DNA of 64,000 nucleotides from Parelaphostrongylus tenuis (taxonomy: Eukaryota > Nematoda > Chromadorea > Rhabditida > Metastrongylidae), in NCBI GenBank assembly GCA_019055375.1, contig JAHQIW010000933.1, positions 31,413-95,412 of the forward strand, in the 5' to 3' direction. Of this stretch, positions 1,713 through 63,890 are shown in pieces. The number at the start of each line of letters is the position of its first letter. The first letter of the stretch is position 1. Below the pieces are notes generated by a model. The model was not told the DNA's origin and made no database searches. It saw only the letters and a list, made by a program, of their open reading frames with translations. A program made the translations under genes and the position numbers.

Positions 1713-6379
<4,667 letters not shown>

Positions 6380-17144: not shown

Positions 17145-17796
17145 TTGTTTGAACTTTTGCGGCTGGAGAAATTACTCATACAAATCAGGGGTTAGTCATG
17201 GGTCAACGATCGCACCGAGTCTTGCCATCGTTTCTAAGGTGGAAGCTCCACTTTTCGCTCACCGCCCGTTACGTGACTGTCGATATATAGACGACTGTTT
17301 CATTGTCTGTTCCACACAAGAGAAAATTGACAAATGTTTAACAGTTTCAAATCAGCAGTCAGAGTGATTGAAATCTGCACGAAGAAGTCCACGTAGGAAC
17401 TGACTTTTATTCTAAACGCACAAATAAAGCTTCTGGGAAGTGGCTAGACTGCTAAATGGTACCGGAAACCAAGGAGCAAAATTAAATAGTCCACTACTTT
17501 CCCTCTCATCCCTCACGCGTGAAAAAAGCACTTATCAAAAACATGTACCGACCGGCAAAAATGCACGCACAATAGAAGAGGAGAGGAAAGAATCGCCTGA
17601 CTTGACACGAAAAATAGCCATTTCCAATGAGTGCGAAGCATGAGCCACTCGGGCAAGTTCAAACGGTAGAATTAGGCCCCAAAACAATATTTTACACCTA
17701 AATAAGATCCTTTTCAAGCTACCATTTGTATCAAACGTAACCTATAACGCCATCAAAAGGTGCTTCAAGGACATGCTCTTAAAAGTTCTCGGGTAG
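17145..17796 (+). pseudogene. Reverse transcriptase fossil, Penelope-like
   Basis: Plus-strand frames show SGVSHGSTIAPSLAIV, SKVEAPLFAHRPL and the catalytic YIDDCFIVCSTQE block at about 17180-17365. After frameshifts come KWYRKPRSK near 17455 and LPFVSNVTYNAIKRCF near 17717. The order fingers/palm, YxDD, thumb fits reverse transcriptases of Penelope-like elements as I know them. Stops and frame changes show it is dead. The GIY-YIG endonuclease expected downstream is not seen; a SINE follows instead. It matters because hammerheads elsewhere are linked to such elements. Confidence 0.7.
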
Positions 17797-17940
17797 TTGC
17801 TGAGTCCCATCTCCAACTCTGTGTCGTCATCTAGCTCCCAATCGCCTTTATCAACTCAGAAGACTGTATAGTCTGTCCTAACAGAAGCGAGGAAGACTGT
17901 ATGAGTTTCGACCCGGCTATATATATGTAATATAAAAACG

Positions 17941-18264: not shown

Positions 18265-18340
18265 TGATAAGCAGACGACGACAAACGATTTACACTACAC
18301 TGCCGTCAAGTGAAAATCACTAGATCGGCACTGCTGTATT
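18265..18340 (-). mobile_element. Fragment of the hammerhead-element family
   Basis: GACGACGACAAACG, TTTACACTACACTGCCGTCA, AGTGAAAATCACT and CACTGCTGTATTTTCAATA match the part of the 45.97-46.27 kb element that lies away from the ribozyme. No ribozyme motif remains. Confidence 0.45.
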
Positions 18341-19485
18341 TTCAATATTGTCAATTTTTTAACTGAATTGCTACATCACTGGCTTGGTTACAAACGTCGT
18401 AAATAACAAGTTTCCTGATTTTTCCAGTACTTCATATCCGCTGCAATGACATATAATGTTGATTTTATGACTGAAACTAACATCGTAATCTCTTGTGTTT
18501 CTTTTGTAACAAATTAGCAAATCGTTAGTAAGTTATTTTTGATTTTTTACTTCAAGGATTGGGTCACTGTATTAGCCTTTGTCATATTCGAGTACTTCTA
18601 CACAAGAAGACGAAAAATAAAATTTCAGAAATCGCCCCTTTGATCTCAACCATACAATAATCTACTTATGTAACCAAAACTGCTATAGAATTAGAATGTA
18701 GAAAGATAAAAAACTCATCCACCCGTCTATACAACATCTCATTTTTTCTTTCTCTTATTTTTTTTCATAGTCGAGCTATTTTGAGTATTTAAGGATGGGT
18801 TATATGTAGTGAAATATCCCCCGTATAAGACAGTTCAAGTGTTTTACACACTTCTGTCATTGATATCACTTCCATTCTTGCTTCATGTGAATATCAAATC
18901 TAATTTTAATTTCACCTTTCATCGGAACATAAAGTGGGGTCGCATTTAATTTCACGATTCGTCATACCGGGTATTGCACGGTTTTCAAAGAGTTAGTATA
19001 GTTATGGTCATAATCTGCAATTCTGCGGCCATATAATTATTCGGCTTCAAAAGCCATAATCACAGAAATCTTCTCCATAGTGGGATGAGTAGAAACAATT
19101 AATTGCTCTGCTTACAGATCAATATGCTATTGTATTATTATATGGGACTTCTTAATTCAACTGCATATTGCTGTTCTCAGGTACAATTTATGCCTGAATT
19201 CAAGCAAATACGAATTCTCGTTAAGTTTCATCTGCAATCCAATTGCTTTTTTTTTTGGAAGTATCGATACGGTAGAAAATCTGACATTTTACAACAATGT
19301 TCTGAAACTACTCAAAAAAAACGCTGCTTTCTAGATTTACAAATTAAGTAGTCCATTCTTTCCACTCTTCTATATCTATGTTCCTTTTCATCTGGGAATG
19401 TTCCTTTCACATTATGGCACGGTGAGTTGCTGATGGCTCCTGAAAAATTCTTTATTCCAGTGTTCACATGACTAATGATTGATAC
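18341..19485. other. AT-rich stretch without recognised content
   Basis: I see no exon series, no tRNA-like element and no inverted repeat that I can support here. Confidence 0.4.
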
Positions 19486-22376: not shown

Positions 22377-22463
22377 CTAACCCTTTCAGGATCACGTGTA
22401 CCACTCATGACTCACGCACATTTTCGTGGTTTTCTCGTCGACTATAGACTTTTCATTGGACAC
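22377..22463. mobile_element. TTAA-type MITE fragment related to the 743-base element
   Basis: TAACCCTTTCAGGATCACG and TTTTCTCGTCGACTATAGAC match the left end of the element at 22674-23416, 300 bases away and in the same orientation. Confidence 0.55.
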
Positions 22464-22673
22464 GTATTTCGGCCGCGCAGCCTCGTTAATCGCACAGTGT
22501 CTTTTGTTTGAGCCAATCCTTTCAGGGAGAACCCCCCTCCCCCACTCCCTACATAAAGGAATAGTCGACGAACATGTTACAATGCCACATGTAAAGTGAA
22601 AATTCACTTCACAAACAGCAGAAACAGCATATCACTACTTATCCAGTGTCATGATCGCCGGACATTGCAGTGA

Positions 22674-34749: not shown

Positions 34750-36484
34750 TTAGGTAGTCGAATGTCTACCACGTTTAGATGGCTCGCACCTTTGATGAAC
34801 AGTATTAAAGCAGTCTAAGCAAACAGCCTTCCTACATTGGCTACACCTCGTACGTATTCGCCTAGCGGTCTTCATCGCATATCTATAATCCCCATGAGCT
34901 CTCAATTTTTTGTAACACTCGACACAACGCCTCCATTTTGGTGGATCCGATATGATCTTCTCGAGTATGCGCCTAGTTGGCAGCTGCGGAACAGCGTCGT
35001 CTCCCAAGTACTTCAGGTACACATTCCATTTGAACTCGTTGAATTCAATCCTCCGCATGCAATCGCTGTAGATCCTCCAAGCGTTAACCATACATGTGTG
35101 CGTGACCAAGTGAAGGAGAAGACGTGTATACCTAAACTCCGGCAAAAATTACATATGTGAAAACTATGAAGGAATTAAAGTGTGCATACCATTTACGGCT
35201 GTTTCTCGTAAAGCATGGAGAATAATCGGCCATTCGATCCATAAGGTCCATGGACGACTTTCGCTTCTCGTAACTTCCAATCACTTCCGGTGTCGATGTG
35301 TTTGGAATGAGGGACGCGTCATACGCTGTGGATAAGATTATAATATTTTTCTTATCCTTCAATTTGAGCACCATAACGCCATTTGCATTCTGCTTGGCTA
35401 TCCATTCCCCTCTGCTCAGTCTCCGTTGGATGATGTTCTTAGGAAGACCAAATCTGTTTTTCTTGCACATACCAGTCAAGTACGTATTCCTCTGTGAAAG
35501 ACTCTCAGCTAGAGAGACACTTGTGTACCATTTATCAGTATAGACATGTCTAGCTTCATCTAGTAAATTATCCATAAGTGTCATCACCACTTTCTCAGCC
35601 AGGCTCGCTGTCCGATTGAGATCTTTGTCTGCATACGCCAACATCTTAAAAGTGTAGCCCTGTTCGCTGCATAATTTGAAGAGTTTCAATCCATATCTCA
35701 GCCTTCTGTGGGGAACACATTGCCGCAATAGAACTCTTCCTTTGAATGACATCGGCTTGTTAATGTATACCTCCTTGCCAGGTCTACATACAGCCTTGCA
35801 ATTCCTATTGATGAGGTCTATCAGTCGGCTAATCTTGAATAATCCATCACTTCCATCGTAATTCGAATTATCTGCTAGATGCAGGTGAGCTAAAATCTTT
35901 TCGAATCTCTCCCTAGACATTACATCCGGTCCAATAGGATATTTTCCAAAAGCCGGATTGTGGCTCCAGTAATCTCTTACGCGTGGCAATCGGACAATAC
36001 CCATTTGAAGACACAAACCAATGAATTTTTTCATTTCTTCGACAGTTAGCGGTTCCCATACAGAACTCTTCTGATATGCATAAGTGTTCGTCTCTTTTAC
36101 AACCAATTCCCATACGTCGACCATGAACAATTCGTAGAAATCGACTGGATCCTTGCACGTGAGCATGATATCGCCTTGAAATCCTAACCAGCTCTCATCT
36201 TTGACGGGTGAACTTTCACGAGTCGCTATCACGCTTGACCAACCACCATCCATGTCATCATCATCGCAGCCATCTTGTTCTTGCTCATCGTCGGATTCAC
36301 TGCTGTCCGAATAATCAGATTGGAGAGGTACGAATGAGTCCATGTTGTCATCCGCATCATCATCAAGGTCTTCACAATCACTGTTGGCAAGGAGTTTCTC
36401 GAACAAAGGCTCGAAACCATCATTCACTATTGACATGACGTCACTGAAATTTAATCTCTCTATCAAGTGAAGGCGGAGTCTCAA
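34750..36484 (-). CDS. piggyBac-family transposase, uninterrupted, one intron
   Basis: piggyBac transposases move DNA by cut and paste at TTAA sites. Exon 1 is 36484-35190 and exon 2 is 35131-34750. The 58-base intron has a GTATGC donor and a GTTTAG acceptor, and the join restores AGC CGT AAA TG|G TAT ACA, reading SRKWYTRLLLHL through the family's KWYxxLxxHL block. The total is 558 residues, normal for the family. Domains: acidic N-terminus (about 30-75), DDE core with SFKGRVLLRQCVPHRRLRYG and KLFKLCSEQGYTFK, second catalytic region HVYTDKWYTS, third region SSMDLMDRMADY, and a C-terminal Cys-rich zinc domain (CVECYKK to CSQC, CLDC, HQRC). The first catalytic Asp of the CDS motif is replaced (CSEQGY), so activity is uncertain. 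I found no matching terminal repeats or TTAA pair around it. The open frame suggests recent arrival or continuing selection. Confidence 0.9.
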
Positions 36485-36909
36485 GTTGTGGTCAACGGAA
36501 TACTGAGATAAAACATGAAAAAAAAGACGTACAAGGAATTTGAACAGAACAAAAACGATCTCGGAAATCTCAGAGAAATTCCGGAAAATATCGGAAGTGA
36601 ACGGGGAACGGCCGTAAAACGAATAGACAGTGTAAGCAGAGCGGTGAAGTGGCGACTACCGTAGAACGTGATAGACTGTCTGGTCTCTTGTAATCACGCC
36701 CTTATGGTAGCTCATGGTCATCTCATAGAACGCAAAGATATACGGAAATATTAGATCTCAGAAACGATAAAACAAAGTCTTTATTATAACTCTATAGAAG
36801 TCCTAACTCTTTAAGTGTTCTAATCATTGGGAATTCGTCGAGAGCTGCCGAAAGATCGGCATCAAATGCAAGATCCATCGCAATTTTTACCGCGTAATTC
36901 GTTGATTAT

Positions 36910-37200
36910 GAGCGCATCTGGTGCAGTGGTTAGAGGTGCCTTGCGTCGCACACAAGGTCAGTGTTTCGATCTCGCGCTCATGGCTCACCAAGCCATCCAT
37001 CGCTCTGGGGTCGGTAAATTAGTATCCGTCTCAGACTTGTCTGGGAGGATAAGCAGCATTGACTCGGTACACCGGTAGGCCACCGCGAGTCATCCACTGT
37101 AAAGGCCAGATATGCATTCGATTACCTCAAACGAAGTTGAAAACTGGAGACGAATGCATGACGCATCCTTCAAGCATTGATCAACTCCAAGAGCTTTATC
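36910..37200 (+). mobile_element. SINE family A, copy 7 (best preserved)
   Basis: The head starts GAGCGCATCTGGTGCAGTGG and the tRNA-like part ends in CGATCTCGCGCTC, so GAGCGC and GCGCTC can form a six-pair acceptor. The body CTTGTCTGGGAGGATAAGCA, GGCCACCGCGAGTCATCC and the tail CGAATGCATGACGCATCC follow, with AGAGCTTTATC at the end. Confidence 0.85.
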
Positions 37201-37254: not shown

Positions 37255-37690
37255 TTAGATGTTATTGGAATGTACCTAAGAGAATTGAGCGGGAAGCAAA
37301 AATCTGACCTCAGGCGGACGTTGAACCTGCATTTCACCCCTCGCCGGCGACGCGTGCTACCACTACACCACAGAGACACCATTTCGCTACCTCCAATTTT
37401 TCAACGCCTCTGTCATAGTATCAGCCCACCAACCGTTAACTGGTTTGGTCGAGTAGTATCCCCTTATAAACCCAATTAAGCTGACAGCCATTGTAATATG
37501 TAGTACTCGAAATATCTTGTGTTTCTAATGCCTTCTCGCAGTCTTTGATGTTATGCAGCATGAAACGGTGCCTCGCTGGTGTAGTGGTAGCACGCGCCCT
37601 CAAACGGGTGAGACGCGGGTTCGACTCCCGCCTGAGGTCGGTTTTTTGCCTTCCCCGCAATTCTCTTAGGTACATTTGGAATATTATGAT
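37255..37690. mobile_element. Foldback element, family B, best example of tRNA-like arms
   Basis: The right arm at 37569-37640 looks like a tRNA: CTGGTGTAGTGGTAGCAC (A box) and GCGGGTTCGACTCCCGC, a five-pair T-arm. It is followed by TTGCCTTCCCCGCAATTCTC and TTAGGTACATT. The left arm (37268-37385) is the inverse, starting AATGTACCTAAGAGAATTG. A complete acceptor stem is not formed, so a functional tRNA is unlikely. Confidence 0.8.
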
Positions 37691-45830: not shown

Positions 45831-45974
45831 AATGAAAAGGAAGCAGAAGTGAATTAAAACTGTGGTGTTAACATAATTACAGAAAGGTTATCAATACGCA
45901 CTTATCTCTTGTCCAAGGAAAAATGTAGGTATAAATTATACGCTTCGTTTTGAGTATTTTCTCAAGACCACGCA

Positions 45975-46270
45975 AAATTTCAGTATGCCAGATAATCACC
46001 TTTTGAGCCACGCATGTGATTTGTTGTAGGGTAGACTTATAGAGCCCGATACATGTGTTTCGACCTTGACAGTCTCATGATTCGGGCGGAACCCTTCGTC
46101 TTTTGCCAATTCTCTTGGGATGCTTCACTGCTTTAGTCTCCTATACCAAGAGTAGGTGACAACGAACACTTTACACCGCCCATTAAGTGAAATTATCACT
46201 GAATAGGCAGTGTTGTACACTCAATTGCTCTTGGCATGTAGGTATAGATTGTTCCTAACCGCCAATATTC
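45975..46270 (-). mobile_element. Hammerhead element, inactive ribozyme copy
   Basis: CCAGATAATCACC, TTTGAGCCACGCATGTGA and ACTTATAGAGCCCGATACA match the elements at 49.3 and 63.7 kb. TTTACACCGCCCATTAAGTG and CAGTGTTGTACACTCAATTG lie at the far end. Confidence 0.65.
46044..46087 (-). ncRNA. Hammerhead ribozyme motif, mutated core
   Basis: On the minus strand GCCCGA and UCGGGC can form helix I, GAC/GUC forms stem II, and GAAAC and GUA are intact. The first core strand reads AUCAUGA instead of CUGAUGA, so C3 and G5 are lost. Cleavage is not expected. Confidence 0.6.
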
Positions 46271-48943: not shown

Positions 48944-51900
48944 ATGCCCAACCTGTCCACGACGGACGACATTCCACTTGCCGACGACGGTGAGTCGTGA
49001 CCTTCTCTCATTTGTCCATGTTTACTGACCTTATAGGTGATGAGACGAGCATAGTTGGCGCAGTGGTTAGAGGTGCTCTCATTCGCCGGTTGATGGTTCG
49101 GTCCCGTGCTCAAGGCTCACCAAGTCATTCCACCGCAGTCGCTGAATCGGCACCAGACTTGTCTGCGACAATAGCAGTGCAGTGATTGATACATTGGTAG
49201 GCTGCCGCGAGTCATTACGAACGCCCGATCTGCATTCAGCCATCTCAAACAATTGCTACGAATGGATTTTTTTATAAGTCGGCCCTCATTGATGGACCAC
49301 TAACATGCATGGCTTAAATAATGATTGTCAGGCATATTGAAATTTGAGCAGTGGTCTTAAGAAAACACTCGAAACGAAAGACTAGATATTTTTGAATATA
49401 TCAGCCAAGAGCAATTGAGTGTACAACACTCTGTGTTTGGTGAGATTTTCACTGGACATAGAGTGTAAAACGTTCGTCGTCGCTAACTCTTATTGTGGGG
49501 ACTGGAGCTCCCACAGAGATCAGCAAAAGACGAGAAAGAATGACTGCCCGACTGACGAGATCGCAAGATTGAAACACGTGTATCGGCCTCTATAAGTCAG
49601 CCCTCATTGATAGACCACTGACATGCGTGGCTCAAATAATGATTATCGGGCTACGAATGGAGTTAAATGCATGAGGAATCTCTCAGGGACTGATCACCCA
49701 GCTACTGTAGTGGCGGCGTCGCTCCTCGTGGGAAACAGGCAAGCAGCCCGAACATGCATGCATACGCATGCAGAGCTGCTTCTGTGGCTGCGGCGCAAGC
49801 GACGGTACGGCGCCGCCTAGATATCAACAAGGGTTATCCTTCTATTACGGGATGAAAGCGTCGTTGAGGAGCTTCTTGGGTTTACGTCCCAAATCTCTGG
49901 AAGCGATGTCCTCATCAAAAGTGATGTGCTAGTGAGATTAAATTTTCAGTTTACACTGAGCACCTCGATACACTAGCGTTTCAACCGCTTTTCTAAAAGA
50001 AAATCTACTTCTTGCTCTAAAATACAGTTGGAAAACAAGAATTATATCAGTCATGTAGCGAGCTGTTGGAGAGGAGGCAGTGCAGTGGTTAGTGATGAGG
50101 TGTGTCAGAAAACAATGTGAATTCAAGGCACTAGGTGGTCCGCCAACTTCTTCTTGTGATCGTTGAACGAATCAACCCTTAGAATACGACAAACCCACGG
50201 CTCTAGCCCCGCCCAACCGCCGCGCGCAGCGACAAGCAGTCCGTAGTACTGGGTGGTGGGTGATGCTTGCCGTCGGGAAAAAGGTTGCTGGTTCGATCCC
50301 CTCTTACGCCGCTTTACATAGTTTTTTGGTGTCGTTTAGTACTCGAGTTTCTTTTATAGATGTAATTATTATATCAGAGAAACTTCTCAATTATATAACA
50401 TTTCACTACTTTTGGATACGAGGCTTAGATCTATGAGATAACAACGCAACCAACGCACAGGTTTCGCAAAACTGACTATATCTACTCCTCTATAAGACCC
50501 TCTAGAAAGTCGTACACTGTGGAAAATGTGTTTTTCGAACTTGGTTTTTGCAACATTGGTGGAAGAAATGCGAAAAAAAGTTGAATGTGCGTTCTTACCT
50601 CATGGTTATGCGTTTCGTATCAAAAAGTAGTGAAAAGTTGAACAACTGTGCACTTTTTTTTTCTGCTTATTAATTACTTTTAGAAGAACCTTTCATACTA
50701 ATCGGTACCAAAGAAACTGCCGTAAAGTGTCCTGGGAGTCAATCGAACCAACAACTTTCTTCCCGATGGTCGGCATGAGTAGCCACTCGGTGCCGAGGAC
50801 GAAGGGGGTCTAGCGCCATGGACCTGTCTCAACCAAAGAGCTAACCAGTTGACTTCCGCGAGCCCGAACTGGGCGTGTTCAACTGGCAAGGGCTCTTACC
50901 GCTAGCGTGGGAACGGCTCCACCCTCCTTCTCCTCTGCGATTCTAACCTCAACGTGGCAATCACTGTCCGTCTTTTCCCTCTCTACCACTCGGCACCCTG
51001 TCATCGGAAAGAATGCTGCTGGTTCGATTCCCTACGTCAGCACTTCACTGTAGTTTTTTTTTTGTGTTCTTTTTGTTTTCAATACAGTATGCTCTAGTCA
51101 CTGACCCACCAGATCACGTCATATCTCAAGTAGTAATACCGTAAGACAAGCCATCAATGTGTATGATTTTATCATCATTTGTTGAGCTATGAAAATTGTT
51201 ATAACCTGCAAATTATTGAGTAAATGGTGATAAATAAGTTATACGCCTTGATCACTTGCATTACGGTGATACTAATATGAGATATGGTGTGATCTGGTGT
51301 GCCAATGATTTGAGGATGTCGTAGTGAAAACAAAAAGATAACACCAATGAAATTACCGTGAAGTGATTCGATAAGGGATCGAATCAGCAACCTTCTTTCC
51401 AATGGACGGATGCCGAGTGATAGAGAGAAGTGAGACAGACAGTGATTTACACGATGAGGATAGAATCCCACTGTCACAGAAAGGGAGGGGATGGAGCCGT
51501 TTCCATGCTGGTGGTGAGAGCCTTTACCAGTAGTTAGACACGCCCAGTTAGGGTCCACGGAAGTCAGCTGGTTAACGAACGCCTTACGGAATGAGCTCGC
51601 GCTCCTCCGGGACTGCAAGGAGAACCGTTTCGACCAGCAATTATCTGGAATTGGAGAAATGAAATCCTCTAACAACAGCCGAAGCAACACGGGAAATGTT
51701 CTTACACCTTTGTGGTGGATGAATACGAGAAAACGAACAGAAGGGGGAAAGCGCTCGGATCCACACATGAAATTGTGATGATGGGCGTATAATTAGGAAT
51801 AGCTCATGCGGATTATCATTATTTTGGTCTCTGTACGTGTTTACAGATAATTTTTTTCAACCAAAATTTCATCGGCTTGTGATTGAGTAGAACAATGCGA

Positions 51901-54900: not shown

Positions 54901-56528
54901 CAACGATACCTGCCGCCGTTTCATCGCATAGTGAGTAGAGCAGTGTCGAGCTGCGCGGTATATTAGGCGATAACCTTGCTAACACGTGGTTGTTGTGGCT
55001 TCCCTTCACATTTTACTTATCTATGAACCTTTCTGGTGACTTTGTTTCCCGGCCAACTCACGGACTGGCGGACGAGGCGAACAATCACTTTTGAAGTGTT
55101 GTTATTCAATTAAAGATTTTTTCGCCCTATCGACAGGAACTTCAGATAGCACGAGAAATTGTCTACAAGTTGATGTGCTTTTCGTGCTTTCAGCGTTATA
55201 TATGCGTTATAAAAATCAAGGCGAAAGGTGAGTGTGAAACAAAATCTTATTATGGATGCTACTTTGTTATAAAAGGGTGTTTTGTAAGTTCAGCAGCTTA
55301 GAGTTTTAGTCAGAGATTTAAGCTTTCTAATGATTATTGGCACTCCTATGAAAATTCCCTGTCCAGTGAACGAGATCGGCTTAAAAATCTGTCTCTCCCT
55401 AACCTTCAAGTACCTGGAATTTTCCTCCTGGTGATATATTTAGAGCCTTTCGTGAGATCTGTAATGACTCATTTATAGTGCAAGACACGTGTTTCAGCCT
55501 TACAGCGTCGTCAGTTGCACAATGCCTTTCGCTTCAGTCAATTCCTTAGACGGGAGACCCCTCACATATAAAGGAATCGACGACAAACAACTTGCATTGC
55601 CGTAAGGTGAAAAGGACATTCGCCGTGCAGTGTTTTTATAGTCAGTTGCTTGTGACTGGTAAAACTTATCGTGCGAAATGATAGCACGTTTTGAGCCTTT
55701 TCTGAGGACTGGTACGGCACTTATGTAGTACTAGGCAGACCTGTATCGCCTTTCCAGGCTCATCAGTAGTACGGCACCTTTCACTTCAGCCGATCCCTTG
55801 CAAGGGATACTCCTGTACTTGTAATGATGACATGATCTATGCTATCGGCCATAACAGCTTGACTGTGATCACTGCCGAGACCTCGCTATTGTTTTGAGCG
55901 TCCACTATATGCGGGACCTCCTTGCAAGGGATTGGTTGAACCGAAAGGCACCTTCAAACTGGCAAGGCTGTAAGGCCGAAACAACATATTTTGCACTGTA
56001 CAAGTGCCATAACAGATCTCACGAAAAGGTCAAAATATGTTGCCAAATTATGCTGTTTCGAGTGAGTCCTTAAAGCAATTGAAAAGAAAGGTATTACGAA
56101 GTCTTGTCTACCACACGACCCGTGGTCGCAATTTTCATATGCAGATCTTAGTAGTTCTTCCTTTTGACTCGTTTCCTCTTATTTATCCTTCACAAAAGTT
56201 TTCGATATCTCATATACGACTTCGGTTGTGTAAAAACCAGTGATATGGGTCAAATGAAGTGATAAAGTGAGAGTGATTGTAATGAACTCAGCAGGCATGG
56301 TCCCATCTTGCACGTTTCAGTTATGAGTTGATTACAGTCGTGCTATGTCCGAACTGCTGATGGTACAAATAATAAGATCATATTTCAGATTTGAGCCAAC
56401 GTGTGGACGCTGTGAAGGAAGAAAGTCTGAAATTACGTTCTGAGAACCAAGTTTTGGGACAGTATATACAGAATTTGATGGCATCTTCATCCGTGTTTCA
56501 GTCCTCGAATAGTGGAGGAAAACAGTAG
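48944..56528 (+). CDS. unc-69: UNC-69 / SCOC short coiled-coil protein
   Basis: UNC-69 works with UNC-76/FEZ in axon outgrowth and synaptic vesicle transport; mammalian SCOC is a Golgi and autophagy-linked coiled-coil protein. Exons are 48944-48989, 52583-52714 and 56389-56528, giving 105 residues. DDIPLADDG near the start recalls the SLADD element of long SCOC forms. The diagnostic coiled coil runs from about residue 42: [19 protein letters not shown], then [27 protein letters not shown] and ASSSVFQ. Junctions are GT-AG with phases 1 and 1. I chose ATG 48944 because the same frame upstream has no ATG before a stop at 48740. Introns of 3.6 and 3.7 kb are full of mobile DNA, including two hammerhead loci. 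An AATAAA at 56759-56764 may be the poly(A) signal. Confidence 0.93.
49043..49266 (+). mobile_element. SINE family A, copy 12, split by the hammerhead element
   Basis: GTTGGCGCAGTGGTTAGAGG, GATGGTTCGGTCCCGTGCTC (B box) and GCACCAGACTTGTCTGCGAC are clear family sequence. The copy breaks at GCTACGAATGGA and resumes at 49650 with the same 12 bases, then GTTAAATGCATGAGGAATC. Confidence 0.8.
49267..49649 (+). mobile_element. Hammerhead element inserted in a SINE, partial tandem dimer
   Basis: The insert is bounded by the 12-base direct repeat GCTACGAATGGA (49255-49266 and 49650-49661). Its two ends are the same sequence: TATAAGTCGGCCCTCATTGA at 49273 and TATAAGTCAGCCCTCATTGA at 49591, a spacing of 318 bases, with the ribozyme just before the second. 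There is no open frame. A T run at the left edge may be a reverse-complement tail. The layout fits a self-cleaving tandem RNA that was reverse transcribed; that is inference. Confidence 0.7.
49546..49588 (+). ncRNA. Hammerhead ribozyme with complete consensus core
   Basis: In order: GCCCGA (helix I 5'), CUGACGA (core, 49552-49558), GAUC-GCAA-GAUU (stem II with a GNRA loop), GAAA (49571-49574), C-ACGU-G (two-pair helix III counting A15.1-U16.1), UA at the cleavage site (after 49582), UCGG (helix I 3'). All invariant bases are present. Helix III is very short, as in hammerheads of Penelope-like elements and retrozymes. Confidence 0.75.
49690..49837. mobile_element. TTAA-type MITE, truncated
   Basis: GTGGCGGCGTCGCTCCTCGT, ACATGCATGCATACGCATGC and GGCGCAAGCGACGGTACGGC match the interior of the 19.7-31.3 kb MITEs. 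Only the right end, ATCAACAAGGGTTA, is left. Confidence 0.55.
50170..50330 (+). repeat. tRNA-like 3' part with B box
   Basis: GTCGGGAAAAAGGTTGCTGG, then TTCGATCCCCTC resembles the B box end of the unit at 50990-51050 (GGTTCGATTCCCTACG). The first half is GC rich (CCGCCCAACCGCCGCGCGC). Confidence 0.4.
50830..51600. mobile_element. Inverted repeat with tRNA-like ends in unc-69 intron 1
   Basis: The left arm (50830-51055: CTAACCAGTTGACTTCCG, ACTGGGCGTGTTCAACTG, GGAACGGCTCCACCC, TGCTGGTTCGATTCCC) and right arm (51345-51590, inverse) match over about 230 bases. A 189-codon minus-strand open frame (51768-51199) crosses the right arm and is probably not a gene. Confidence 0.6.
52000..52390. mobile_element. 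Foldback element, family B, with tRNA-like arms
   Basis: The left arm AACCCAAGAGAACTAAGTGG with GGTTCCGAACTCGCGTCTCA (inverse) faces the right arm TTGGTGTAATGGTAGTAGC, GACGCGGGTTCGATTTCCGC and CAATTCTCTTAGGTAAG. Confidence 0.75.
52792..53017. mobile_element. TTAA-type MITE, CCGTGG subfamily, in unc-69 intron 2
   Basis: It starts TTAACCTTTACAGATCGTGG, then ACCCACGCGCTCTGCGTC, and ends AACGCAGAGGTCATGGGCCC, ACGGTCTTAAACGGG. Arms are inverted; the right TTAA is lost. Confidence 0.65.
53865..54050 (+). mobile_element. SINE family C in unc-69 intron 2
   Basis: GCATGACCGAATGGTTGTGA (A box region), CTCTCCGGCAATCAACAACG, CGCCACAGCTAGGTTATCCT and CGAGTTTGCAAGGAGACG follow the family order to an AAGAAGAAGACGA tail. 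Confidence 0.7.
54583..55404. mobile_element. F-family foldback element in unc-69 intron 2
   Basis: The arms TTAGGGGGCGACAAATTTTT, GGACAGGGAATTCTCATAGG, AGTCAGAGATTTAAGC/GCTTAAATCTCTGACT and CCTATGAAAATTCCCTGTCC, TCTGTCTCTCCCTAA are inverted over roughly 150 bases at each end. Confidence 0.7.
55478..55520 (-). ncRNA. Hammerhead ribozyme with complete core
   Basis: On the minus strand: GUGCAA and UUGCAC give a perfect six-pair helix I, CUGACGA is at 55514-55508, stem II is GCU/GGC with a GUAA loop, GAAA is at 55495-55492, then C-ACGU-G and UC at the cleavage site (55484). The base pair next to the core in stem II is a C/U mismatch, which may lower activity. Confidence 0.7.
55728..55772 (-). 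ncRNA. Hammerhead ribozyme motif, second tandem copy, mutated
   Basis: On the minus strand: GUACUA and UAGUAC form a perfect helix I, CUGAUGA is intact and stem II is a perfect GCCU-GGAA-AGGC. GAUA replaces GAAA and the cleavage side of helix III is expanded. It is probably inactive, but its compensated helices show common descent with the neighbour. Confidence 0.6.
55955..56003 (+). ncRNA. Hammerhead remnant, inverted third unit
   Basis: The core CUGGCAA replaces CUGAUGA. A perfect GGCU-GUAA-GGCC stem II and GAAAC follow, then an AU-rich replacement of helix III and UUUGCACUG. It is inactive. Confidence 0.45.
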
Positions 56529-57430: not shown

Positions 57431-57474
57431 ACATCATATCACTGCTAAAAAGCGGTGAAGTAAAGAATTTTTAT

Positions 57475-57715
57475 ATGCCTGATAATCATTTTTTTAGCCA
57501 CGCATGTCAGTGGTCTATCAAAGAGGGCTGACTTATAGAGCCCGGTTTTTGTTCTGTCTACATTCCAATATACCTTATAGAGCTCGGGCTCTATAAGTCA
57601 GCCCATTTTAACGGACCACATGACATGCATGGCTCAAAAAATGGTTATCAGGCATATTGAAATTTGATCTGTGGTCTTAAGAAAAACACTTGAAACGAAA
57701 GATATAAAGAATTTT
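57475..57715. mobile_element. Hammerhead-element remnant, small palindrome
   Basis: ATGCCTGATAATCATTTTTT, GGGCTGACTTATAGAGCCCG and the inverse GGGCTCTATAAGTCAGCCC, GGTTATCAGGCATATTGAAA face each other. The ribozyme itself is deleted from both sides. Confidence 0.55.
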
Positions 57716-58405: not shown

Positions 58406-58602
58406 CGTACTACTTAGCAGTTCAGATGCCTTGGTAGATTTTCTGTCAGTGTTTGGATGTGGGTGTTGGTGTGCCTTTAACTCAATCTTTCACCTTTTCG
58501 TGATGGTGATGACGTGAGCCTTTCTGGACTACTGTCTTATTTATATCCTTTCATCATTATTTGAGCCAACATGTCATGTGATCTGGTAAGGGCTCTTGTA
58601 CA

Positions 58603-58646
58603 GCCCGAGACACCGTGCTTCGTCCTTACAGACTCATCGGCCGGGC
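58603..58646 (-). ncRNA. Hammerhead motif, left arm, mutated core
   Basis: On the minus strand helix I (GCCCGG with UCGGGC) and stem II (GUCU-GUAA-GGAC) are intact. The core reads CCGAUGA and GAAG, so two invariant positions are lost. Confidence 0.6.
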
Positions 58647-59119
58647 AGAACCCGTCGTCTGCGATCTTTTTATAGTCAATTCTCTCGGGAGTGTCACACT
58701 CCTTATATATAGTTATCGACGACGTACGCTTACACTCTATGTCAGGTGAAACATCTACTTAACACAGAGTGTTGTGCACTCGATTGCTCATTGGCTGGTG
58801 CTTTTATCATATTTATACCTTATCTCGAGTGCTTTTGTTTTAGACCACGCTCAATTTCAATTTATCCTTTCATCATTATTTGAGCCACCATGTCATGTGT
58901 CTGTCATATTTGAGCGTGGGTCTAAACAAAGCACTCGAGATAAAGGTATAAATATGATAAAAGTACCAGCCAATGAGCAATCGAGTGCACAACACTCTGT
59001 GTTAGGTGGATGTTTCACCTGACATAGAGTGTAAAGCGTACGTCGTCGATAACTATATATAAGGAGTGTGACGCTCCCGAGAGAACTGACTATAAAAAGA
59101 TCGACAGACGACGGGTTCT

Positions 59120-59161
59120 GCCGGCTGATGAGTCTGTAAGGACTAAACACGTGTCTCGGGC
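59120..59161 (+). ncRNA. Hammerhead motif, right arm, G12 changed
   Basis: CUGAUGA (59125-59131), perfect GUCU-GUAA-GGAC stem II, C-ACGU-G and GUC before UCGG are intact. UAAA replaces GAAA, removing the guanosine known as G12, the general base, so it should be inactive. Confidence 0.65.
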
Positions 59162-59285
59162 TGTTACAAGAGCCCTTACCAGACCACATGACATGTTGGC
59201 TCAAATAATGATGAATGGATATATTGAAATTTTGAGCGTGGTCTAAACAAAGCACTCGAGATAAACGTATAATATGCCTTATTTA

Positions 59286-62200: not shown

Positions 62201-63700
62201 ACTGACTATCTTTTTAGCGATTTCAACCCTTTTGGAGAAGGAGTGGCATTGCATGGAATGCACTCATTTTCGCTTTGAATTTTTTTTACCTGACGTTAGT
62301 CTATCCAGCTATCATAATCATTCGACAGCACCAATAAACGTTCCGTCTGTTTTTATAGTGGAAGATTAGATTCCTCTATGCATTTCCCTGCGATAATAAA
62401 ATGGAACTATCACTTGAAGAGACTTCTACAAACGTGGATTTTTCAGTAGGAAAGAGCGTCATTGTGCCTTGTTAAAATTTTGTATTTCATAATGGTAGAA
62501 CTGAATTCTTGGCACAAAAAAACATACTCGCGAATGTACTTTCATATGTGTATTGCCTCCTTTGTGAGAGGGCAACTGGGAAGTACATAGTCTCTGATGT
62601 CTAGCTCTCTGGAACGGCTCTGCATGAAGACATTCCTAATTTGTAACTGGATTAAGGACTAGAAGGAGCAGGCAATCAATCTCATTGTGGTAGAGCACTG
62701 TAGAAAAAAAAATGTGCAAAACTGATCTATGCTTCCATAACCATAATATAGAAATTTTTCTTACTACAGTCCCGAAAACTATATAGGTTGTTGAGTGACT
62801 GAAGAATTGAGAAGCGGTTTCCCATGATATGTGGGAGATGAAGAAAGTCCAATTTGATATGCATGATAGAAAATGACAAAAAAACAAAACATGTGATTCC
62901 ATCAAGTTAATAAAATACACTCTACAATTTCCGTTTTCTAAGCGAGGAACGAAAGCTTTTCAATGAGAAAACATTTCGAAAAGGGGAGTGGTTCACGAGT
63001 GAGGCAGAAGTTTTCGCACATGCTAATAAAACAAGACCTTCTACTGGAAACAGGATGAGGCTGGTTTTTTTGCTCAAACAAGCATAAAGTGCCGTCAAAG
63101 AATTATCGCAGAAAATACTGCGACTGCAAGCAATACTTAGAGCCACACTGAGCTTCAGATTTGGAGGCAAATTAACGCAGGTTTCAAAGCCCCTTTGAGT
63201 AGTGAGTATTGCTTGAATTCCAACAAACGCTATACCCTGACATAAAAAAGGGCAGTAAATAAGAGGTGTAAACGGCCAGGTATACCTAAAAAGTGATCAT
63301 ATGCTTTCTATGATCCCACATGAACGTCTACAATCGTACTGGCCTTTCACGTTAGACACAAAGATAACGCAACCAAACAGGCGGCGCTAAAAACAACATT
63401 CCTGCTGTATACGAAACGGAAGTATTGCAGGAAGTAGATATAACCCAATGCCAACAAAAGTAGGGTGGCTTACACTGAGGGAAATGCTCTACTAACGAAT
63501 ATTTTTTAATAATGTGTTTTGGAACTACTTGGGTATCACATCATCAACACTAGTTCAAACTTGACAAATCCACAAAAATAGTTTTTCGAGTTTTTTCTTC
63601 TGCTTCTAGTCCGCAAATATTTTCTACTATACAATGTATGTGTTTAACATATCTTTCCATTTCGACAGTGTTATTCTTAGATCCACAGCTTCAAATTTTC
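59286..63700. other. Stretch with unsupported open frames
   Basis: Open frames at 59434-59688 (+, 84 codons), 60622-60931 (+, two overlapping frames) and 62922-63240 (-) cannot be assigned. The last could be an exon: a TTTTTTATGTCAG acceptor is followed by GIAFVGIQAIL, and a hydrophobic frame lies upstream at 63390-63480, but I could not join them in phase. Confidence 0.3.
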
Positions 63701-63704
63701 AATA

Positions 63705-63890
63705 TGGCCTGATAATCATTATTTGAGCCACGCATGTCAGTGGTCTGTCAATGAGGGCTGACTTATAGAGCCCGAACACGTGTTTCGATCTTGCGATCTC
63801 GTCAGTCGGGCAGTTGCCCTTTCCTCGTCGTTTGCTAATTCTCTGTGGGTGCTCCAGTCAGTCCCCACAAATAAGAGTTGGCGATCTGAA
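63705..63890 (-). mobile_element. Hammerhead element, fresh-looking copy at window end
   Basis: GCCTGATAATCATTATTTGA, GCCACGCATGTCAGTGGTCT, GAGGGCTGACTTATAGAGCC and the ribozyme are followed by CTCTGTGGGTGCTCCAGTCA and CCCCACAAATAAGAGTTGGC. It is the closest relative of the 49.3 kb copy. Confidence 0.65.
63770..63811 (-). ncRNA. Hammerhead motif, intact core, one base short at cleavage site
   Basis: On the minus strand: GCCCG/CGGGC helix I, CUGACGA at 63805-63799, a perfect GAUC-GCAA-GAUC stem II, GAAA and C-ACGU-G. The junction reads GUU then CGGGC where the 49.5 kb copy has GUA then UCGG, so one base is missing. Cleavage is doubtful. Confidence 0.6.

Follow-up and report, generated by a model that had tools for sequence, protein, structure and literature searches.

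The genome of Parelaphostrongylus tenuis contains a widespread element of about 317 nt with a predicted hammerhead, whose copies end at two fixed sites after the ribozyme and often form head-to-head pairs with one end of each kind, and the same arrangement was found in the Penelope-like element (PLE) resident in this genome. Such two-site 3′ ends and such pairing of retrozyme copies are new. The element is, with high confidence, a non-autonomous retrozyme of the metazoan non-LTR kind, made only of RNA signals that a PLE needs. Judging by the shared end pattern, it is probably mobilised in trans by the Penelope machinery, the intact PLE being the source of the borrowed enzyme. The features found in the window, i.e., the whole analysed stretch of 64,000 nucleotides, are listed in Table 1.

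Insertion of the element into a SINE

The earlier note on this DNA described an insert in a SINE, flanked by a 12-base target duplication and with ends that repeat each other at a 318-base spacing. All three traits were confirmed for this insert (insertion A). The duplication GCTACGAATGGA is present on both sides, the end repeats are 89% identical at the 318-nt spacing, and the SINE does resume past the insert because 5 of the 23 blastn matches to the joined flanks crossed the junction by at least 15 nt on each side. These five are other copies of the SINE, namely window 36919–37183, window 11025–10819, and those in the loci L065, L083 and L003. The claimed span was right as to location, but its first six bases do not belong to the unit sequence. 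The GC at the 3′ junction can be assigned to either the element or the duplication. The SINE target is regarded as tRNA-derived, its head having been judged by eye, with no tool assignment.

Elsewhere in the window, an Rfam tRNA match (37570–37639, plus strand, 38.8 bits) corresponds to a tRNA gene or the head of a SINE. The window also contains an ORF of a piggyBac transposase (35135–36655, minus strand, 507 aa; DDE_Tnp_1_7, E 3e-74), with the best match (73%) in P. tenuis and the next named ones in Dictyocaulus and Heligmosomoides.

Table 1. Features of the window related to the retrozyme and the Penelope element.
Feature	Position	Strand	Remarks
Retrozyme insertion A	49267..49649	+	1.2 units, 383 bp; first six bases TTTTTT are a T run outside the unit sequence
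Target duplication, left copy	49255..49266	.	12 nt, GCTACGAATGGA; flanks insertion A
Target duplication, right copy	49650..49661	.	GCTACGAATGGA; flanks insertion A
Tandem end repeat, left copy	49273..49333	+	From unit position 9 onward
Tandem end repeat, right copy	49591..49651	+	Spacing 318; 3′ end class S, unit position 69
SINE target, left part	49040..49266	+	tRNA-like head, by eye
SINE target, right part	49662..49870	+	Other side of insertion A
Type I hammerhead (predicted)	49546..49588	+	Helix III short and palindromic (ACACGUGU); cut predicted after A49582, between 49582 and 49583
Unit hairpin, 18 bp	49423..49473	+	Covaries between subfamilies, two-sided changes in 10/18 pairs
Insertion D, left arm of head-to-head pair	57466..57544	-	Unit positions 2–80; 3′ end S
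Insertion D, right arm	57584..57705	+	Unit positions 1–120; 3′ end L; pair flanked by TAAAGAATTTTT
Insertion E, left arm	58553..58906	-	Older subfamily, 72%; 3′ end S
Insertion E, right arm	58908..59265	+	3′ end L; UAAA in place of GAAA in the hammerhead (by eye)
Copy B	63645..63884	-	91%; 3′ end L; hammerhead without the base preceding the cut (by eye)
Copy C	45944..46235	-	72%; 3′ end L; duplication ATGTAGGTATA, its left copy lying 10 nt beyond the edge; hammerhead core decayed
Hammerhead of distant relative F	55478..55520	-	Profile match 55440–55662, E 1e-16; compensatory helix I changes
Fossil Penelope RT	17145..17905	+	RVT_1 E 5.3e-5, below the Pfam cut-off
Relic of Penelope-type minimal hammerhead	4887..4927	-	88% to that of the intact Penelope over 41 nt

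Hammerhead ribozyme

The earlier note placed a hammerhead exactly before the second end repeat; the motif is there, but its predicted cut lies 8 nt before the repeat. It contains the CUGACGA and GAAA segments, a helix I GCCCGA/UCGGCC with one C-C mismatch, a helix II GAUC/GAUU with a GCAA loop and the palindrome CACGUG as helix III. According to PMC7229834, a palindromic helix III is a feature of hammerheads acting as dimers, and the short one found here resembles the dimer-acting axolotl motif described there. A strict structural scan gave one match in the window and one in total in 300 dinucleotide shuffles.

The covariance-model search proposed in the earlier note had a mixed outcome. Copy A had no Rfam match in either the gathering or the E-value mode, and none was found at the gathering score in six related loci. 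In the E-value mode, all three units of L008, a close tandem relative, matched the full Hammerhead_1 model (1–45) at 27.7 bits (E 2e-4), which is below the gathering score of 34. In an alignment of seven subfamily sequences, 95% of the hammerhead cells were paired and 9 changes were two-sided, compared to 2.8 in shuffles; further pair types were no more numerous than in shuffles. The older relatives C, E and F of the window keep the hammerhead helices with compensatory changes. The hammerhead did not form in the minimum-energy fold of 49540–49595 (z 0.79) or in that of L008 1778–1834, which holds only a part of it. The ribozyme is thus predicted from the motif, the covariance-model match and the covariation.

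Using the helix II string, 97 hammerheads were recognised in 56 loci, a count limited to copies that keep this string, so that decayed copies are missed; 71 of the 97 have an intact core and all six helix I pairs. A hammerhead-like pair at L010:556 (plus strand) and L012:579 (minus strand) lies in a dispersed, possibly coding segment of two loci and was set aside as probably due to chance. No exact match to the 30-base core was found in viral contigs.

The unit and its copies in the genome

The 481.5 Mb assembly (5105 contigs) was searched with insert A, which gave 5455 first-look candidates; 40 of them were scored, with 81 matches. The region L008:1493–1809, located inside an array of about three units, was taken as the reference unit (317 nt, GC 0.423), and its positions are numbered from the hammerhead cut. 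The tandem copies that the earlier note proposed to look for were found at about 317 nt in C720, C3367, C1241 and C3368, with intact hammerheads in the confirmed arrays, and target duplications of about 12 nt were found at copies across the genome. In a doubled unit, open stretches reach 67 aa at most, in agreement with the claim that the element has no protein, and no LTR, PBS or PPT was seen in the unit, as judged by eye only. The tandem copies, the lack of an ORF and the duplications support the reading proposed at the outset, namely a non-autonomous, reverse-transcribed element of about 318 bases.

Upstream of the hammerhead, the unit contains an 18-bp hairpin, in which the two-sided changes listed in Table 1 compare with 5.9 in shuffles; it was unformed in two of the six members folded (L014e and F). 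The hammerhead of F has a decayed partner motif 252 nt upstream, at 55766 on the minus strand, and the two are perhaps another tandem retrozyme or a PLE pLTR. Very old relatives of the unit were detected by profile at 22459–22616, where the hammerhead is decayed, and at 18270–18344, both on the minus strand of the window. A monomer that runs from cut to cut within one base was found in L088 (673–990, minus strand), with no clear target duplication by eye.

3′ ends, head-to-head pairs and target duplications

The 3′ ends of the copies fall at two narrow sites counted from the predicted hammerhead cut, namely S at about +72 and L at about +120, and many insertions are head-to-head pairs inside one target duplication of about 12 nt. 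The 36 simple pairs have 72 outer ends, of which 34 were at positions 59–83, 33 at 114–140 and 5 elsewhere, the limits of the S and L classes having been fixed after the ends were seen. The pairs were S/L in 31 of the 36 cases and never S/S or L/L, and the remaining five had one off-site end: L004 (39), L014 (48), L075 (104), L083 (the hammerhead cut, its edge being set by eye) and L089 (294). The L075 pair (104/118) is near L/L. Under independent even odds, 31 mixed pairs of 31 have a probability of about 5e-10. The first 18 pairs came from the window and from the insert-A query, which itself ends at S; the other 18, of which 15 were S/L, were found with a mid-unit query containing neither of the end sites. 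The latter query provided a neutral sample of 27 loci, taken without the already-known matches and C179:15350, a presumed duplicate.

Target duplications of at least 8 nt, most commonly of 12 nt, were found at 14/18 and 15/18 pairs against 4/306 and 5/306 mismatched controls (29/36 against 9/612 together). Among 30 insertions of the first sample, 11 had a duplication of at least 11 nt, compared to 0 of 870 controls. Since 29 of the 36 pairs lie inside target duplications, a pair represents a single insertion whose two 3′ ends face the target.

The pair count did not include L001 (the window itself), duplicates of other loci (L009, L015, L016 and L022) or L070, L077, L080 and L081. In L070 (39–981), one pair interrupts the L tail of another; the outer pair is S/L with TAAACTA, and the inner one reads L/L with an 8-nt duplication AAAGTTAT, against the usual S/L. 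L080 (L/L) and L081 (S/L) have no duplication, and both are rearranged relatives of L079. In L077, blast ran into an old copy, and close reading by eye gave an S/L pair with CCTTTCATTATT. L079, L080 and L081 are three places of contig C1896 with a common head-to-head junction; two of them lie within about 1.5 kb, in inverted order and with unlike 3′ ends. The junction may have been duplicated, converted or re-transposed.

It is improbable that the pairs are snap-back copies of a single cDNA and not the products of two primings. Variants are mostly common to both arms, which agrees with such copying, and rotifer Penelopes whose junctions are palindromic have been suggested to self-prime (PMC3846280). 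However, mirrored 3′ ends would be expected, and none of the simple pairs, 31 of 36 being S/L, has them; the L/L pairs of L070 and L080, both outside the count, are the sole mirrored retrozyme pairs seen. Less credible still is a SINE-like repeat or a satellite that a LINE has spread, the hammerhead being a by-product and the tandems arising via unequal exchange. The tandem arrays speak for such a repeat, as does the first report of newt hammerhead repeats as satellite DNA (PMC7229834). Against it, no poly-A or 3′ repeat was seen by eye at the copy ends, and the two fixed internal 3′ ends, the S/L pairing and the head-to-head arms fit PLE integration; S/L pairs are hard to reconcile with a LINE or satellite origin. 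Folding of the segment between S and L was slightly better than that of shuffles or no better (z −1.65, −1.47 and 0.29), and therefore no structure is claimed there.

The resident Penelope element

A Penelope-like fossil at 17.1 kb was also reported in the earlier note. Its identification was upheld by the RVT_1 match (Table 1) and by comparison with an intact Penelope of the genome, to which it is 71% identical at the nucleotide level over 791 bp. When the genome was searched with the RT fossil, 3890 candidates were obtained; 150 matches were scored, and their open frames were of up to 902 aa. In both L037 and L038, the elements have an open ORF as well as head-to-head partners, and a pLTR repeat is present in L038 at 2841 nt. 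The ORF of L038 encodes 896 aa with RVT_1 (3.4e-12) and GIY-YIG (1.1e-5) domains. Among 7991 best word-sharing candidates scored, 77 matched the intact PLE protein; the closest were from Necator, Ancylostoma and Haemonchus, and P. tenuis was not named among the 77. No sequence match to the PLE ORF was found among solved structures. L038 also contains a perfect 32-nt tandem duplication (862–925) close to where its inverted and direct PLE arms meet.

The pLTR of the PLE has a minimal hammerhead motif, GGCU CUGAAGA AGGCGGGUCGCC GAAACGUC/AGCC (slash, cut). Counted from this cut, 30 of 31 PLE 3′ ends were at +65 to +82 or +115 to +130: all 20 of the main set (including two that lie in a palindromic duplication, their flanks being identical), all 9 of a second set and one of the two for L033 and L065. 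The median ends were 72.5 and 120 for the retrozyme and 76 and 118 for the PLE (20 ends). Seven of the eight PLE pairs, defined as opposite RT matches within a few kb, were S/L (C2112, C2130, C2201, C3803, L032, L037 and L038). Locus C2158 was not counted as a pair, since its two S ends have the same flanks and belong to a palindromic duplication. The exception, L033/L065, is a nested PLE (L033 2700–3066 with L065 1400–1983), the right 3′ end of which is at its own hammerhead cut, not at S or L. A PLE–retrozyme chimera formed by an RT template jump was considered in L033 and rejected, the locus actually being a young PLE that interrupts an old retrozyme pair and has a 13-nt duplication, CCGAACTTACATT, read by eye.

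The PLE is regarded as the probable helper because both elements show the same unusual end pattern, and the possible use of a Penelope-like enzyme raised in the earlier note is thus supported. Since this geometry is common to unrelated sequences, it is the strongest argument for one shared machine. The unit could instead be a non-autonomous Penelope, i.e., an internally deleted PLE consisting of two pLTRs without an ORF, and not a separate retrozyme lineage. Its termini, tails, target duplications and head-to-head pairs are all as in PLEs, and its behaviour is that of a PLE dependent. However, no similarity between the unit and the pLTR of the intact PLE was found by blastn (L037 and L038) or with a six-sequence retrozyme profile against six PLE loci. 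In addition, the retrozyme hammerhead is a fuller type I form with a 4-bp helix II, unlike the minimal GAAACGUC form of the PLE. A deleted PLE is accordingly considered rather unlikely, and the element is filed as a retrozyme working like a PLE dependent, not as an autonomous PLE, on the basis of the published PLE anatomy, the biochemistry of the Anolis PLE and the definition of retrozymes.

5′ ends and the template

The earlier note expected copy junctions to cluster at the cleavage site. The 3′ ends do cluster at fixed distances from it, but clustering of the 5′ ends at positions 1–12 was pronounced only in the first sample, i.e., the A-query loci and the window (17/55 copies, against 4/48 in the neutral sample), and therefore it does not serve as the main evidence. 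These counts were made without L016, two copies in L065, L080, L081, the old copy in L077 and two copies in L086. The right arm of L083 terminates only a few bases from the hammerhead cut; together with L088, this hints that cleaved RNA can also serve as a template.

When 11 common polymorphic sites were compared, 16 of 146 comparisons between two arms of the same insertion showed a difference, against 2067 of 5334 between arms of different insertions (32 pairs, without W-D, W-E, L004 and L014). The contrast was weaker for all sites, with 137/5781 (2.4%) within pairs and 7053/193711 (3.6%) between them. Since the arms mostly carry matching variants, most insertions probably used one RNA, or RNAs from one source. 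The arms of L082, L091, L092 and L029 differ at 2–4 polymorphic sites, so one RNA was not the template in all cases, and these four are likely exceptions.

It is quite possible that the template was a circular RNA and not a linear multimer. The copies extend through the hammerhead joint and beyond one unit, and abundant circles are reported from metazoan retrozymes (PMC7229834). On the other hand, the 17 of 55 first-sample 5′ ends at positions 1–12 and the L088 monomer resemble linear cut RNA, which is not decisive.

Comparison with known elements

Metazoan retrozymes were defined by Cervera and de la Peña (2020, PMC7229834), who named PLEs as a strong candidate helper. The P. tenuis element resembles the non-LTR retrozymes described there in its type I hammerhead, unit length (317 nt against 170–400 nt), GC content (42% against <50%), tandem arrangement, absence of an ORF and LTRs, target duplications (>4 bp in that study) and coexistence with PLEs. 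The two-site 3′ ends, the S/L pairs and the PLE-matched geometry are not described in the available text of that study, and nematodes are not among the phyla named there. No paper on nematode retrozymes was found by title or the start of the abstract in a literature search that was thin on subscription journals. Plant LTR retrozymes are likewise non-autonomous, hammerhead-bearing and protein-free (PMC4918200), but they differ in having LTRs, type III hammerheads, circles of 600–800 nt and 4-bp duplications (PMC7229834).

As for EN+ PLEs, bdelloid rotifer Penelopes were shown in 2013 to have inverted pLTRs, a target site duplication of 8–10 bp and an optional 31-bp tail on one pLTR (PMC3846280). 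The retrozyme is similar to them in its head-to-head inverted copies, short target duplications and optional tail on one copy. The differences are the absence of an RT/EN ORF, the lack of similarity to the intact PLE of the genome and the tail of about 48 nt, not 31. Further EN+ PLE features are a hammerhead in the pLTR, two internal RT starts and extension of both target strands (PMC11167929). In that study (Frangieh 2024), the purified Anolis PLE protein cut and extended both target strands with two internal RT start sites, which explain the tail.

Proposed mechanism

In the mechanism that we propose, transcripts of tandem copies would be cut by the hammerhead, perhaps as dimers via the palindromic helix III. 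The RT/GIY-YIG protein of the PLE would bind the segment after the cut and make two nicks about 12 bp apart. Then, cDNA would be primed at S from one strand and at L from the other, usually on one RNA, and the RT would read upstream through an uncut or religated hammerhead. The two cDNA ends would be joined head to head, and single copies such as insertion A would keep one arm only. Since the retrozyme and the PLE have no detectable similarity around the cut, either the PLE protein must recognise structure or another PLE family may be the partner.

As a tentative generalisation, Penelope integration may involve two RT molecules placed one behind the other on a single RNA, at fixed distances of about 72 and 120 nt from the hammerhead, each primed by one nicked target strand. 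The hammerhead would then be a positional landmark, and the unrelated retrozyme would parasitise the enzyme by copying this geometry. If true, this would explain both the near-constant pairing of S with L and the like variants in the two arms. In the Anolis system, the use of start sites was equal between strands, insertion occurred in vitro despite a dead hammerhead and hammerhead cleavage was absent without the protein (PMC11167929). These three results count against our best explanation.

The element may add a nematode case to the retrozymes. The helper of animal retrozymes and the role of the hammerhead in Penelope elements are open questions in the papers cited, and young copies of both partners, which share a sharp end signature, are numerous in the P. 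tenuis genome. The rule of one S, one L and one target duplication is a concrete prediction for the insertion of Penelope DNA.
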